From Planctomycetales bacterium (GTDB taxonomy: Bacteria > Planctomycetota > Planctomycetia > Planctomycetales > Planctomycetaceae), in the NCBI GenBank assembly GCA_026400835.1, contig JAPLOA010000076.1, forward strand, positions 1-64,000: a DNA stretch of 64,000 nucleotides, written 5' to 3'. The translations under genes and the position numbers were made by a program. Numbering within the stretch: position 1 is the first letter of the stretch; each line of letters begins with the position of its first letter. The notes below the pieces were generated by a model. The model saw only the letters and a program-made list of their open reading frames with translations, was not told where the DNA came from and ran no database searches. Shown piece by piece: positions 55,415 to 63,856 of this stretch.

Positions 55415-56530
55415 CTATTTCGAATACGGCCCGGATCCGGCGGTCGCTGTTTGATTCGCCAGGCCCTTTGCAAGGCAACTCCGAACCACTTCCAGGGCTT
55501 GCGAGACGTCTTCGGCGGAAACATCCAGATGGGTCACTGCACGCATTCGCTGGCCGCCCATCGGACCGATCAGGATCCCCTGCTCCCTTAATGCCCCACA
55601 AAACTGTACGGCCGTCCCAAGGTTGGAGTCGATCTCAAAAAAAACAAGATTGGAGTCGACAAGCGAAGCATCGCAACGGAGCCCTTCAATGCCGGTCAAC
55701 CCCTGCGCCAACTGCTGAGCATTCTCGTGATCCTGCCGCAGACGATCAACATTATTCTCAAGTGCATGAATAGCAGCGGCCGCAACAATACCAGCCTGCC
55801 GCAGTGAACCTCCAAAGATCTTGCGTACTCTGCGAGCCTTCAGAATATCATCTCTGTCACCAATCAACATAGATCCCATCGGACATCCAAGCCCTTTGGA
55901 GAAGCACACCGAAATGGTGTCAAAGCATTTTCCCAGGTCCGTCGCCGAATATCCGCCGGCAACCATCGCATTAAAAACTCGAGCCCCATCCAGATGTCGC
56001 TTCAGTCCGTGGGCCACGGCCCATTCCGAAACACGCTGTAATTGATCCAGCGGATAGACTCGGCCACCACCGATGTTTGTGGTGTTCTCGAGGCAAAGTA
56101 ACCGCGTCCGAGGAAAATGCTGATCGTTACTTCGAATGCGTCCTTCCAGATTGGGGATATCCAGAAAACCCCCATCAGCCGCAATTGTGCGAACTGTCAC
56201 CCCGCTCAATGCGGCTGGCGCTCCACCCTCAAACAGTGAGATATGTCCTGTTTCGTTAATCAGAAGTTCGTCACCAGGAACGCAGTGAACTCGAACCCCC
56301 ATTTGATTACTCTGAGTTCCCGAACACGCAAACACGGCAGCCTCGCGACCGAACATTTCGGCAACCATTTTCTCGAGGCGATTGACTGTCGGATCTTCGC
56401 CCAGCATGTCGTCGCCGACCTCCGCGTTAGCCATCACATGACGCATCGCCAGGGACGGACGAGTGACAGTATCACTGCGAAGATCGATGAGTTTCACGGG
56501 ACAGACTTTCAAAGAACGGGAATGAGCCAT
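55415..56530 (-). CDS. ltaE: low-specificity threonine aldolase
   Basis: A 371-residue PLP enzyme of fold type I that cleaves threonine or allo-threonine to glycine and acetaldehyde. The family start is LIDLRSDTVTRPSLAMRHVM; the ten residues before it, from the ATG at 56530, are less certain. Expected blocks are GDDMLGEDPTVNRLE, FACSGTQSNQMGVRVHCVPG, ENTTNIGGGRVYPLDQL, KRHLDGARVFNAMVA and the Schiff-base lysine Lys212 in VCFSKGLGCPMGSMLIG. Length is slightly above average because of the tail. No glycine-cleavage gene is nearby. Confidence 0.93.
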   Translation of the reverse strand: MAHSRSLKVCPVKLIDLRSDTVTRPSLAMRHVMANAEVGDDMLGEDPTVNRLEKMVAEMFGREAAVFACSGTQSNQMGVRVHCVPGDELLINETGHISLFEGGAPAALSGVTVRTIAADGGFLDIPNLEGRIRSNDQHFPRTRLLCLENTTNIGGGRVYPLDQLQRVSEWAVAHGLKRHLDGARVFNAMVAGGYSATDLGKCFDTISVCFSKGLGCPMGSMLIGDRDDILKARRVRKIFGGSLRQAGIVAAAAIHALENNVDRLRQDHENAQQLAQGLTGIEGLRCDASLVDSNLVFFEIDSNLGTAVQFCGALREQGILIGPMGGQRMRAVTHLDVSAEDVSQALEVVRSCLAKGLANQTATAGSGPYSK

Positions 56531-59685: not shown

Positions 59686-59750
59686 ACCACTGCAGACGGA
59701 CGCATGTTGAAGTTATCAGGAGCCATCGAGTTCCATTGGCAGCGTCTCCC

Positions 59751-60923
59751 CTATTGCAGCCCGAGCTTCACAAGGTGGTTTCCCAGACGAACGTAGATCG
59801 CGTCGCCTGCAACAGCGGGATGGGTAAGCACCTGCACACGACTCTCCTGCAGCTTTAACCGCGAGAGGATTTGGGGAACTTCGGTTGCAGTATCGAGCAG
59901 CAACAGTTCTCCGTCATCATTCAAGGCCAGCAGCCGCGAATCAGTCGCAATCAGACTTCCGTATCCTGCAAAAGAATCATCCGAAATCGCTGCGACCGTC
60001 TTCAATTCCTGATCCGGATCCAGCCCATAAAGTTCGTTCCAGATGCCAAAGAGACGCTCCCCGGAGACAACGGGCGTGTGTGAGTCCGGCCGCAAATCAT
60101 TGTTGTGATGATCAGGCTCTGAGTGAAGTGTTCCATCAGCGTTAAAGTGGTAGACACGAGTTCCATTGTTTTCCGAGGATACCAGCAGACGATCTCCCAG
60201 AGAAACAGCCGTTGGCACATTAAAGTCACCAGTCTCCGGAGGTATCAACGTCCATAATCTTTTCCCGGTCTTCACATCCCAGCCGCCGAGTGATTCTGCG
60301 TCATAGCCGATAACCTGCTTTTCTTCTCCGACTGCCTTGAGTAGGAGTGACGAATATGACGCTTCATTGCCGGGAGTCTTCCAAACAACATCACCCGTCT
60401 CTGTATCCAGAGCCACCAAAGAAGCCTCTCTGCCACCGGGTTGCAGAATCAACTTTCCATCGACAAGCAACGGCGATCCGGAATGCCCCCAGATCATTTT
60501 CGGGGTGGAGAATTCTTTGGCAATGTTTAGTTGCCACATCATGATGCCGGACTCCAACTCCAGGCAACAGAGATGGCCAAACGCACCGAGTGTGTAAACG
60601 AACTCGCCGTCGATCAACGGCGTCGCGCGCGGCGCATTGCCGTAATCAAGATTGCCAAGGGCCGGATACGCATGTTGCCAGACGATGGAGCCATCTTCAC
60701 TGTCGAGGCACTGAAAAACATCATGGCGATCCAATGCGTCGCGGCTGCCGATGACCACAAAACCATTGGCGACAGAGACTCCCCCGAGGCCATCTCCAGA
60801 CAATTCCGTGGACCATTCGAAGTCCGGAGATTCCGGCAGGCTATCCGGAAGCCATTGAACACGCCCGTCTCTGTTCTGCCCACGCCATCCAGGCCAGTCT
60901 GTGTTTAGCGATACCGGCGTTAC
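59751..60923 (-). CDS. PQQ-like beta-propeller, likely the second half of a frameshift fusion
   Basis: About 390 residues of PQQ-like beta-propeller. In the conserved N-terminal blade DWPGWRGQNRDG leads to WLPDSLPESPDFEWSTELSG and GDGLGGVSVANGFVVIGSRD. Later blades contain SIVWQHAYPALGNLDYGNAP, VVWKTPGNEASYSSLLLKA and TGDFNVPTAVSLGDRLLVSS. The first start codon in frame is TTG at 60803, which would delete the first 40 residues including the WRGQNRDG block. No ATG, GTG or TTG exists above it before a TGA at the A9 run. Without its own signal peptide, this protein would not be exported if made separately. Reading through by a -1 slip at the upstream gene end would fuse it to the exported PhnD-like protein. 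A homopolymer sequencing error is the alternative. Confidence 0.75.
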   Translation of the reverse strand, partial: VTPVSLNTDWPGWRGQNRDGRVQWLPDSLPESPDFEWSTELSGDGLGGVSVANGFVVIGSRDALDRHDVFQCLDSEDGSIVWQHAYPALGNLDYGNAPRATPLIDGEFVYTLGAFGHLCCLELESGIMMWQLNIAKEFSTPKMIWGHSGSPLLVDGKLILQPGGREASLVALDTETGDVVWKTPGNEASYSSLLLKAVGEEKQVIGYDAESLGGWDVKTGKRLWTLIPPETGDFNVPTAVSLGDRLLVSSENNGTRVYHFNADGTLHSEPDHHNNDLRPDSHTPVVSGERLFGIWNELYGLDPDQELKTVAAISDDSFAGYGSLIATDSRLLALNDDGELLLLDTATEVPQILSRLKLQESRVQVLTHPAVAGDAIYVRLGNHLVKLGLQ

Positions 60924-61819
60924 TTTTTTTTTGCGTCATCAACCACTGAACTTGTTGCCACAGCTTCTTTCCACGGGACAAATCCTGAGGCCGTTTCCAG
61001 GTCAATCAACAACTGTGCATCCAAACCTGCCTCGTCCAACGCATTGGAAAGCTTAGATAACTCAGTGGCAGACAATGAAGCACGGGCGAAGAGAGTAATG
61101 AATGGAACCGGATTGCTTTCACCGATTACTCGCAGATCACCCTTCTTGACCTTGCCACACCCTTCCAGCAACGGTTCGGCATAACTTGAGATCACAGCCG
61201 AAGCCTTTGTAGTGGCCGACATTTCCATCAAGGCCACGGCAGCGTTGCTGCATGATGGAGACGTCTCCAGCTCATCAGGCAGTTGAATCCCGTGCTTTCG
61301 AAGAAGTTCGACCGGGGCAGCCGATTTTTCATCACAGTCCGCAGGACCAAAAAGTATTCGATAGCCCTTCAGGTCATCCACTGACCTGGCCGCGTCATCT
61401 TTTCTGACAACGATCAACCCTGTCTGTGTAACTTGATCTTTCAGATCGGTCAACTGAGCTAATGGAGTGACGTCGAGCTTTGCTTCCGCAGCATCGGCCA
61501 GAACTACGGAGTGCTTGCCGATAATCAAATCAGCCTTACCCTCAGACTTCTCCAGCGCTGCTTCAAGCGACTCTGCCCACACAACGTTGACTTTTCTTCC
61601 CAACTGCTTGTTCAGAAATGCGCCCAGTGACTCATATTTTCGCTGAGCGTATCCTTTGACACAATCACACGCCAAGGGCGCGGCCATGGGATCCATGACC
61701 ACCAATGTCAACGCATTCGCCTCTGATGATTCGCCTGCAGAAATCGTTAACGCTGGCACAACATTCAGAAACGAAAGCAATGCAATCACAACAGCACTGC
61801 AGTGAAAAACGTAAGACAC
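60920..61819 (-). CDS. PhnD-like substrate-binding protein
   Basis: A 299-residue periplasmic binding protein of the PhnD/phosphate-phosphonate type. The start is GTG with AAGGGG about six bases upstream. A signal peptide (MSYVFHCSAVVIALLSFLNV, cleaved near ISA-GESSE) precedes lobe 1 (ESLGAFLNKQLGRKVNVVWA, KADLIIGKHSVVLADAAE) and LIVVRKDDAARSVDDLKGYR, the hallmark phrase preceding ILFG; lobe 2 follows. An insertion with CDCVKGYAQRKYESLG and two further Cys is unusual. No transport permease or ATPase is in the window, so it may act as a sensor or be attached to another enzyme. It ends ...DDAKKK at an A9G run followed by TAA, where a -1 slip would enter the propeller frame. Confidence 0.88.
   Translation of the reverse strand: MSYVFHCSAVVIALLSFLNVVPALTISAGESSEANALTLVVMDPMAAPLACDCVKGYAQRKYESLGAFLNKQLGRKVNVVWAESLEAALEKSEGKADLIIGKHSVVLADAAEAKLDVTPLAQLTDLKDQVTQTGLIVVRKDDAARSVDDLKGYRILFGPADCDEKSAAPVELLRKHGIQLPDELETSPSCSNAAVALMEMSATTKASAVISSYAEPLLEGCGKVKKGDLRVIGESNPVPFITLFARASLSATELSKLSNALDEAGLDAQLLIDLETASGFVPWKEAVATSSVVDDAKKK
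60924..60932 (-). other. A9 run: possible -1 frameshift or transcription-slippage site
   Basis: On the minus strand the binding protein ends GCA AAA AAA AAG TAA. This includes A AAA AAG, the slippery heptamer used by dnaX. A -1 shift gives GCA AAA AAA AAA GTA ACG and enters the propeller frame. The run occupies the nine T positions on the plus strand. Confidence 0.55.
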
Positions 61820-61903
61820 GGAATCACCCCTTGAGGCTGAACGACTTCAGGCGAAACAAGAAAGGGCTTGAGCGGAGAACCAACTTCAATGCTCAGCTGT
61901 AAG

Positions 61904-63670
61904 CTACTGGTCCGCATCCTTTGCAGGTTTTGGATCTGAGGCCTCTTCAGGTCTGGAATCTTCAGCAGCCGCAGGCTTCTCGAGGACTCGCTTGTACCGA
62001 TTACTGGCCATCACGTTTTCGTTATACAAGAGTGAGATCGTGGCTTCATTATCACTCACGAACTCAATCTTGTAATCGTAGTATTGGATTGAGTCCTGCA
62101 ATTGCGACACGATCAGCGTGTTGCCATCCTGTTGGACAGCTTCCCATGCGTTGTCACCATCAGCAAACTGACCGCCAGACAACGTGAGCTTTCCGTCGGC
62201 ATCAAAACGGAAATAAGATGATGAATAGGGATCGTCCGCACTAACAGATTCCCCTTCAGCTCCCAGCAACCCTTGCAACAGTGCCCCCAAAACCGATGGC
62301 TCGCTATTCGCCGCGGGCTTATTCCCCGGGCGATTTCCATCAAGCGACCATTCTCCAATCAGCTTCATACCGAGACCTTCGCGTGCTTCTTTCGCCAATG
62401 CCTCATCAGGAGTAATCTCAGGAGCTTCCGCATTTGGAACCAGTACGCAAATGTGTGACTTGTCAACGTTCATCATGTAGTAACGATCACGCTTCGCATC
62501 GAATGCCACGGCCACATGTTTGCAGCCACCGCCGATTTTTGCCTTGCCAACAACTCCAATCAGTTCACCTTCTTTGTTGAACCGTTTGATCGTTCCAATA
62601 CTGGATTCGGCCGTCAGGATATCTCCGTTATCGCAACACCGCACGTTCATGGGATTGCAGCAGCTTCCGAATCCATCAATCGCTTTGCGATCACCTTTAC
62701 CGAAATCTGTCAGGCGTTCACCGTCACGATCCAGCAACGCAACTTTGAATTTCGTGTTCTCAGCGAGAACGAGGTGACTTTCTGTGGCCTGAATATCGCA
62801 CTGACCGCAGCATCCTCCCAACTCACTGACCACCTTCTTTGGCTCAGAAAACTCATGAGTCATGCGCCAGACTTCATAGCCGTAGCCTTCCAGAGCATTG
62901 CAGCACAGGAATACGTCTTTGCTGGTTACCGCAAGCGCGGTAATGCCCATTTTCTGAGTAAGCATCTGCTCGCCCGAAAACATCTGGGAGTACGAGTCTT
63001 CCGTTGATTTCAGTTGGTCTGCATAAAGAGCCTTTTGTTCTTCATATGTCGCCAGACGTTTCTTATCCCGCTCTGTCAATTCGGCTTCCGGCTTTTCCTT
63101 CAGCTTCTTAATGCGCTCTTCAATACTTGCGACCTGGTCGCGGAACATCTCGGTCATTTCATCAACTTGTTTCTTCGCCCCCTCCTGCACTCGCTGCTTG
63201 AATGTCTCCATGTCGCCGATATGTGGCGAATCAGCAGTGCTGCTGATTTTCCAGTCGTCGCCAAGGCGAGCAACCTTTCCATCACCTGCAACGAAAATCG
63301 AACCGTCAGGAGCCTGATTCAGTGCGGTCGGTGTAAAGGGCAGTTCAATGCTGCGAATAAGTTCGCCGTCTGGTGAGTACACTTGAAGCAACTTCGCAGC
63401 GACGTTTGTTTTTGTTTCCTGTGATCCGTCATCATTGAGCACATACTCAACGTTGTCGCCACCAACGCAGGCCAGCAGACTTCCTTCTTTGTCGAGACAA
63501 AACGTATTGAGAACAATCGGCTTCCCCTTATGCGTCGGCTTGATAACACGCGCCTGCTTATGCGTAGATGTGAACTCCTTCTCTGCAGCGACATTGTTCC
63601 CACAGAGCCAGAAAAAAAATGCCGCAACAAAAAGGAATGTTGCGATAGGTTTCAACTGATGTCGGTTCAT
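61904..63670 (-). CDS. exported Cys-rich beta-propeller-like protein
   Basis: A protein of about 588 residues starting at MNRHQLKPIATFLFVAAFFF, a signal peptide cleaved near NVAAEKE. The first half has propeller-type phrases (YSPDGELIRSIELPFTPTAL, NQAPDGSIFVAGDGKVARL) interrupted by a charged helical region, about residues 160-225 (KQRVQEGAKKQVDEMTEMFR), likely a coiled coil. The second half carries paired cysteines in GGCCGQCD, SCCNPMNVRCCDNGD and GGGCKHVAVAFD, as in NHL-type blades that may bind metal. A C-terminal barrel-like domain follows (YFRFDADGKLTLSGGQF, then YYDYKIEFVSDNEATISLLY) and a Lys/Glu-rich tail. The gene lies 84 bp upstream of the PhnD-like gene on the same strand. Confidence 0.8.
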   Translation of the reverse strand: MNRHQLKPIATFLFVAAFFFWLCGNNVAAEKEFTSTHKQARVIKPTHKGKPIVLNTFCLDKEGSLLACVGGDNVEYVLNDDGSQETKTNVAAKLLQVYSPDGELIRSIELPFTPTALNQAPDGSIFVAGDGKVARLGDDWKISSTADSPHIGDMETFKQRVQEGAKKQVDEMTEMFRDQVASIEERIKKLKEKPEAELTERDKKRLATYEEQKALYADQLKSTEDSYSQMFSGEQMLTQKMGITALAVTSKDVFLCCNALEGYGYEVWRMTHEFSEPKKVVSELGGCCGQCDIQATESHLVLAENTKFKVALLDRDGERLTDFGKGDRKAIDGFGSCCNPMNVRCCDNGDILTAESSIGTIKRFNKEGELIGVVGKAKIGGGCKHVAVAFDAKRDRYYMMNVDKSHICVLVPNAEAPEITPDEALAKEAREGLGMKLIGEWSLDGNRPGNKPAANSEPSVLGALLQGLLGAEGESVSADDPYSSSYFRFDADGKLTLSGGQFADGDNAWEAVQQDGNTLIVSQLQDSIQYYDYKIEFVSDNEATISLLYNENVMASNRYKRVLEKPAAAEDSRPEEASDPKPAKDADQ

Positions 63671-63856
63671 CCTTAACACTTCCAGCAAAGGATTCAAAAT
63701 TCGTTCCAACGGCAACCAGCCCAGGAACAAGAGTCGGTCTGCAGATTCAGTCCACGCATTTTGAAACGCGACAATTCAAAATTTCTTCAGCAACAGGCCT
63801 GCGGTTAAGATACACGTGTTCGTGCACGCCACGAAAATTCCGCCGTGAACGCTTCT

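Follow-up and report, generated by a model that had tools for sequence, protein, structure and literature searches.

We propose that a run of nine adenines (A9) at the 3' end of a planctomycete gene for a PhnD-like substrate-binding protein is a conserved slip site through which one gene would give two exported proteins, mostly by slippage of RNA polymerase (rough probability 0.65; both products are inferred, without RNA or peptide data). That slippage of one kind or the other, by polymerase or by ribosome, occurs at the run we hold to be very likely, again without direct evidence from RNA or peptides. In the proposed mechanism, the RNA polymerase would insert one extra A at the A9 run, and ordinary translation of the resulting A10 mRNA would yield a 689-aa fusion of the binding protein with a β-propeller. 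The unslipped A9 mRNA would meet a stop codon right after the run and give the PhnD-like binding protein alone, and ribosomal −1 slipping at the A_AAA_AAG heptamer may contribute as well. The fusion would thus tether the propeller, for which we saw no signal peptide of its own, to an exported binding protein.

Layout of the locus

The window, i.e., the whole stretch of 64,000 nucleotides that was analysed, carries the PhnD-like/propeller feature on its minus strand, with the following parts:

61819..60920, minus strand: PhnD-like substrate-binding protein ORF, 299 aa, GTG start, PF12974; the short product
60932..60924, minus strand: A9 slip run, followed by G at 60923 and TAA at 60922-60920
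60923..59751, minus strand: PQQ/BamB-like propeller, 390 codons plus stop, −1 frame, PF13360; the C-terminal part of the fusion

The binding-protein ORF begins with a signal-peptide-like stretch (judged by eye), matches PF12974 with an E-value of 2.6e-22 (79.8 bits, above the gathering score of 27), and ends in GAC GCA AAA AAA AAG TAA. The original prediction, which gave no strand, had this gene ending in A9G followed by TAA, and we found exactly this at 60932-60920 on the minus strand, with the A_AAA_AAG heptamer in the zero frame of the ORF at 60929-60923. The propeller (PF13360, E-value of 2.7e-24, 86.5 bits, above the gathering score of 27.6) lies in the −1 frame relative to the binding protein. 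This frame opens one codon ahead of the A-run, because two stops stand just upstream (SG-stop-stop-RKKKVTPV), and stays open down to 59751. A one-base slip at A9 leads directly into it and joins 299 and 390 residues into 689 aa, so both the predicted frame and the predicted lengths hold in the sequence. The first ATG, GTG or TTG of the propeller frame is the TTG at 60803, beyond the conserved WRGQNRDG block, which bears out the earlier claim that no propeller start precedes the first TTG. Between the A-run and this first possible start, the fusion of the window species would release the tryptic peptide VTPVSLNTDWPGWR. The "PQQ" label of the propeller is by fold only, and there are no data on PQQ binding or catalysis. 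The only other A/T runs of at least eight in the window are two A8 runs on the plus strand (55637-55644 and 63612-63619).

Conservation of the A-run in homologous loci

Relatives were found by searching with the binding protein. A script located 197 PhnD-domain loci, of which 134 non-identical ones remained after copies sharing an identical 55-residue signature were dropped; the figure counts loci, most of them in planctomycete genomes and metagenome-assembled genomes (MAGs), rather than species. By propeller frame, 79 loci have the propeller at −1, 45 were classed as fused in one frame, and 10 are other or cut off. The last group comprises two loci with the propeller at +1 (L088 and L138), one with a separate propeller in the same frame (L196), four without a propeller and three that are cut off. 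L012 was entered under "no propeller" because its contig ends, and its run and the start of its −1 frame are visible. Two of the 45 fused loci are doubtful: L139 has a brief propeller match only, and L011 (G004:C52), from a genome of the same genus, is a deletion-bearing remnant of the PhnD-propeller gene.

An A8-A10 run ends the PhnD ORF in all 79 loci with a −1 propeller. These loci are spread over several families of the class, and their PhnD identity to the window goes down to about 46% (best segment). The nearest relative, L003, retains the run with altered bases just downstream, and the closest named match of the window binding protein, from a Planctomycetaceae MAG, is 96% identical. The gene is patchy: it was found in 46 of 170 family genomes, in 84 of 397 from the class and in 18 of 392 drawn from the phylum. 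Two cultured strains, Rubripirellula obstinata CECT 8602 (L111) and Gemmata sp. IIL30 (L153), are among the carriers. Among the 81 slip loci (the 79 at −1 plus L088 and L138), whose GC content reaches 0.69, the run is A9 in 62, A8 in 17, A10 in two and never shorter than eight. Its codon phase varies (phase 2 in 53, 0 in 20 and 1 in 8), as do the residues encoded at it (KKK, EKKT, QKKS, KKN). Across these loci, what is conserved is a run length of 8-10, not the peptide or the codon phase. The production of a fusion beside the short binding protein, as predicted, is thereby strongly supported, although by conservation and not by RNA or protein data.

Runs of this kind are scarce elsewhere. On both strands of the 7.58-Mb genome there are 23 exact A9 and 128 exact A8 runs, and outside the junctions of 80 named loci (624,421 bases) we counted 12 A/T runs of eight and one of nine or more; the placement of A-runs at the junctions is more than chance. 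We examined 116 distinct A≥8 runs of the genome, namely the 23 A9 runs and 93 more; the set leaves out 28 of the 128 A8 sites and a few others. At two of the 116, long ORFs meet in a clean −1 junction when at least 100 open codons are required on each side of the run. A candidate +1 junction, L224, was set aside as probably spurious, having a long ORF on the opposite strand.

Polymerase or ribosomal slippage

At A/T runs of E. coli and Buchnera, single-base insertions prevail in transcripts and rise with run length (PMC5574713). According to PMC1088944, many genomes show selection against A/T runs at a length of nine, and Thermus dnaX undergoes slippage at A9; the same paper proposes that a 9A run whose length is conserved among homologues is a sign of purposeful slippage.

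The real rival to polymerase slippage is programmed −1 frameshifting by the ribosome, of the kind known from E. coli dnaX and IS elements, at A_AAA_AAG or A_AAA_AAA, with the mRNA itself remaining A9; we regard it as possible, if rather doubtful. All 81 slip loci contain an A_AAA_AAN heptamer in phase, and 79 of them shift in the −1 direction, as this reading predicts. The run is followed by G in 71 (C in 10), as A_AAA_AAG would favour, and a stop codon begins one base past the run in 55. In addition, A_AA.A_AA.G is described as among the most efficient motifs in E. coli given IS911 or IS3 stimulators (PMC4066793). However, the heptamer needs just six or seven A's, yet no locus has fewer than eight, and ribosomes in a cell-free E. 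coli system are reported to slide robustly on A11 and little on A9 or A10 (PMC4363877). A single ribosomal −1 step cannot explain L088 (A10) and L138 (A8), where the propeller is at +1 and the shift must be the opposite one; both loci are MAG-derived and could be misassembled.

The evidence for stimulators is mixed. Shine-Dalgarno (SD)-like matches of at least 4 nt occur upstream in 26% of the 81 slip loci versus 42% of control windows. Folding after the run exceeds that of controls on average, both with dinucleotide shuffling (mean z −0.78, 20% of loci below −2, versus +0.28 and 1%) and with synonymous-codon shuffling (z −0.50, 15%, versus −0.19, 4%). A conserved downstream hairpin received no general support, the mean signal being weak in both shuffles and folding being strong in some loci only. 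The window itself has no notable fold (z −0.01 and 1.01), pseudoknots being outside these tests, and an Rfam search of 59700-62000 gave no match up to an E-value of 1.

We favour polymerase slippage because the run length is kept at 8-10 while its phase and flanking codons vary, because no general stimulator was found, and because a few fused genes keep A10 in frame. The original prediction had named the slippery site as the dnaX type. The in-phase A_AAA_AAG is indeed present, but the run length is kept in any phase, and no general stimulator was found. In our analysis, the pattern would fit transcriptional slippage as in Thermus dnaX better than ribosomal slippage as in E. coli dnaX.

Natural fusions, phylogeny and predicted structure

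In 43-45 of the 134 loci, one uninterrupted ORF encodes both the PhnD-like domain and the propeller. The domain combination, called unusual in the original prediction, is thus real as far as gene sequences can tell, and the proposed search of other genomes for the same fusion and for conserved A-runs returned both. Seven fused loci retain an in-frame A8-A10 run. In L106, L037, L042 and L191 each of the two other frames reaches a stop within about ten codons, and in L038, L041 and L146 one other frame runs on for tens of codons without a stop. The genes with A10 in frame could have arisen by recent mutation.

An AlphaFold2 model of the unbroken fusion L085, computed from a 27-row alignment in which P0001 and P0002 were separate rows, has a mean pLDDT of 86.6 and a pTM of 0.65. 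It contains two well-predicted domains whose mutual placement is uncertain, joined by a segment predicted as disordered (residues 281-307) that matches the junction site of the slip genes. The best 50 Foldseek matches of this model include BamB (E-value of 4.5e-17), tetrathionate hydrolase and PQQ dehydrogenases.

The phylogeny was inferred with FastTree from 125 concatenated PhnD and propeller rows, with nine loci excluded (the four without a propeller, the three cut off, and the doubtful L011 and L139) and with the +1 loci L088 and L138 labelled as slip. The slip label falls on both sides of the drawing midpoint, and the tree requires 12 changes between slip and fused, at least eight of them forced by starred branches (FastTree stars are less trustworthy). 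In the clade of genus g44, A9 slip genes are mixed with fused genes that have A10 (once A8) in frame. Of the loci from other classes, four (L211, L212, L213 and L216) are fused. When the tree was rooted with loci from other classes, the outgroup was not monophyletic, and the root was fused up to a gain cost of 2 and slip from 3; since the polarity depends on the costs and the outgroup is not monophyletic, whether slip or fused is the older state remains undecided.

These data bear on three further explanations. Replication slippage could alter the run length at the DNA level and toggle the fusion, as in phase variation, and the difference between related species (A9 in L036 and L040, A10 in L037, L038 and L042) would agree with this. 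Such switching should give a more even mix of frames than the one observed (79 at −1 and two at +1 versus seven with an in-frame run), and we therefore consider phase variation very unlikely.

We see equally little room for two separate genes, with translation of the propeller beginning independently, either from a rare start codon or through reinitiation past the stop. The stop and the propeller do adjoin, and the TTG at 60803 is present, but a start there would remove the conserved WRG block. Among the 79 loci at −1, ATG is absent between the run and the WRG motif in all, and GTG and TTG are also absent in 67; when the part of the propeller frame that precedes the run is counted as well, a start codon is absent in 56. 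(These counts use an approximate motif position for one locus, L107, in which no motif was detected.) Separate genes would also leave unexplained the conserved A-run, and they sit poorly with the natural fusions and the lack of a visible propeller signal peptide. Homologues with separate genes and a normal propeller start, which would have refuted the original prediction, amount to at most one of 134 loci: in L196 the propeller shares the frame of the binding protein and lies 81 nt downstream of it, with a start codon that is not established. Finally, a one-base homopolymer error at A9/A10 in a single ordinary fused gene would likewise join the frames, and this alternative, raised in the original prediction, is excluded because 79 loci share the same offset in many assemblies, including the single-contig genomes G079 and G086.

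A second A-run junction in the same genome

The other clean −1 junction among the runs examined in the genome joins a pair of ORFs unrelated to the PhnD-propeller gene:

G000:C67:71193-71203 (L230, L379): second −1 A-run junction, between a vWA protein and a TPR-like ORF

The upstream ORF encodes an 880-aa protein that has a vWA domain (PF13768) and, close to its end, Gly-Met repeats; the downstream ORF has 415 codons with a weak, below-cut-off TPR match. The family search matched the TPR-like protein in 157 of 170 genomes, and the class search matched the TPR half in 189 of 198. A −1 A-run junction is present in 45 of 68 loci examined, with an exact A9 in 43 of the 45. Of the first 48 loci (our own included), 39 are clearly −1 (37 A9, one A8 and one A10), L360 is in one frame with A10, L369 is +1 with A9, six have a run with too short an upstream sequence to decide the frame, and L262 has no run near its contig end. 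No start codon lies between run and domain in three of the 39 −1 loci and ATG is absent in 26, so that start codons are less telling here than at the PhnD-propeller site. Twenty more loci gave six with an exact A9 and −1, eight with one long ORF without a run, and six without a run, five of these last lying near a contig or frame edge. The sixth, L390 (G279:C228), is uncut and has a short frame and no A-run despite its upstream sequence; another junction may be used there. Two of the six A9 loci have GC contents of 0.69 and 0.72, which is notable because composition alone would make such runs very rare.

Among the 99 TPR-half matches listed outside the family of the window, 86 lie in one frame of 1,197-1,715 aa and 13 are shorter (hand count). 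The matches listed within the family are short frames, except for G161 (1,351 aa). Three members of family f2 are among the matches listed, all split with A9, and most f2 members are not among them. The long single ORFs elsewhere indicate that the vWA and TPR-like halves belong together, and on the sequences compared, an A-run sits at their junction in the family of the window and in some others. Whether polymerase slippage at about A9 is a clade-wide device of planctomycetes, acting on several genes and giving short and long forms of at least two unrelated exported proteins even at a GC content of 0.69-0.72, seems to us evenly balanced.

Genomic neighbourhood and possible role

Upstream of the binding protein, on the same strand, lies one further ORF:

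63730..61904, minus strand: Cys-rich NHL-like protein, 608 aa from TTG (true start uncertain)

This protein carries a CCGQC motif and has no Pfam match above cut-off, and its family match is weak (scyF_NHL, E-value of 2e-4, far under cut-off). In 74 of 81 loci, counting that of the window, an ORF of its cluster lies upstream in the same orientation. It is the only widely shared neighbour within about 4 kb among the twelve largest clusters, and it is probably an operon partner of the PhnD-propeller gene.

The binding domain shares its family with phosphonate- and phosphite-binding PhnD proteins (PF12974; PDB 5jvb), and a profile search matched the phosphonate-binding protein 5jvb with an E-value of 1.7e-10, whereas a single-sequence search with the binding domain gave no match. 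It differs from PhnD in three respects. First, it scores only 33.7 bits against TIGR03431, the PhnD equivalog, whose curated cut-off is 261.1. Second, it has a conserved CxC (124 of 125 sequences) and two further cysteines (122 and 125 of 125). Third, no ABC-transporter gene was found among the widely shared neighbours (twelve largest clusters, 81 loci); an ABC-ATPase-like cluster, named by eye, occurs in four of 81 loci at mixed positions. A PhnD paralogue in the same genome (L002, G000:C77:133976-134830) is 63-65% identical and has neither A-run nor propeller, and therefore the binding protein can stand alone. L002 adjoins a CobW/G3E-like GTPase (named by eye from the sequence). We infer that the locus encodes a module for sensing or scavenging in the envelope, and that the slip would set the ratio of free to propeller-tethered binding protein; the ligand and the role are unknown.

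Comparison with known systems and implications

To our knowledge, conserved slippage in ordinary bacterial chromosomal genes has rarely been described, dnaX being the classic case. According to PMC1088944 and PMC5009743, Thermus thermophilus dnaX is likewise a non-mobile chromosomal gene with an A9 late in its coding region and a short and a long product, and the in-frame-run members L106, L037, L042 and L191 match its layout. There, however, the long product is the zero frame and a replication subunit, whereas the long PhnD-propeller product usually needs the slip and would be an exported two-domain protein. With the ribosomal frameshifting of E. coli dnaX and IS3-type elements, the gene shares the in-phase A_AAA_AAG, the nearby stop and the −1 direction, but no general SD-like or stem-loop stimulator was found for it, and it keeps a run of at least eight in 81 of 81 loci. 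A8-A10 runs also fuse two ORFs, orfA and orfB, in IS elements of Deinococcus and Nostoc (PMC1088944); those are mobile, while the PhnD-propeller gene is chromosomal and kept across families of a bacterial class.

Among the best-ranked matches in open-licence PMC papers, we found no literature on planctomycete slippage or on a PhnD-propeller fusion, and a GeneTack survey of 1,106 genomes included two from planctomycetes (PMC3711429). Recoding thus seems to be unstudied in the class that carries this gene. If our reading is true, gene calls that end at the run divide many planctomycete proteins in two or miss their propeller half, and the recurrent switches between A-run slip and in-frame fusion would constitute a natural experiment on the purpose of the ratio of the two products.
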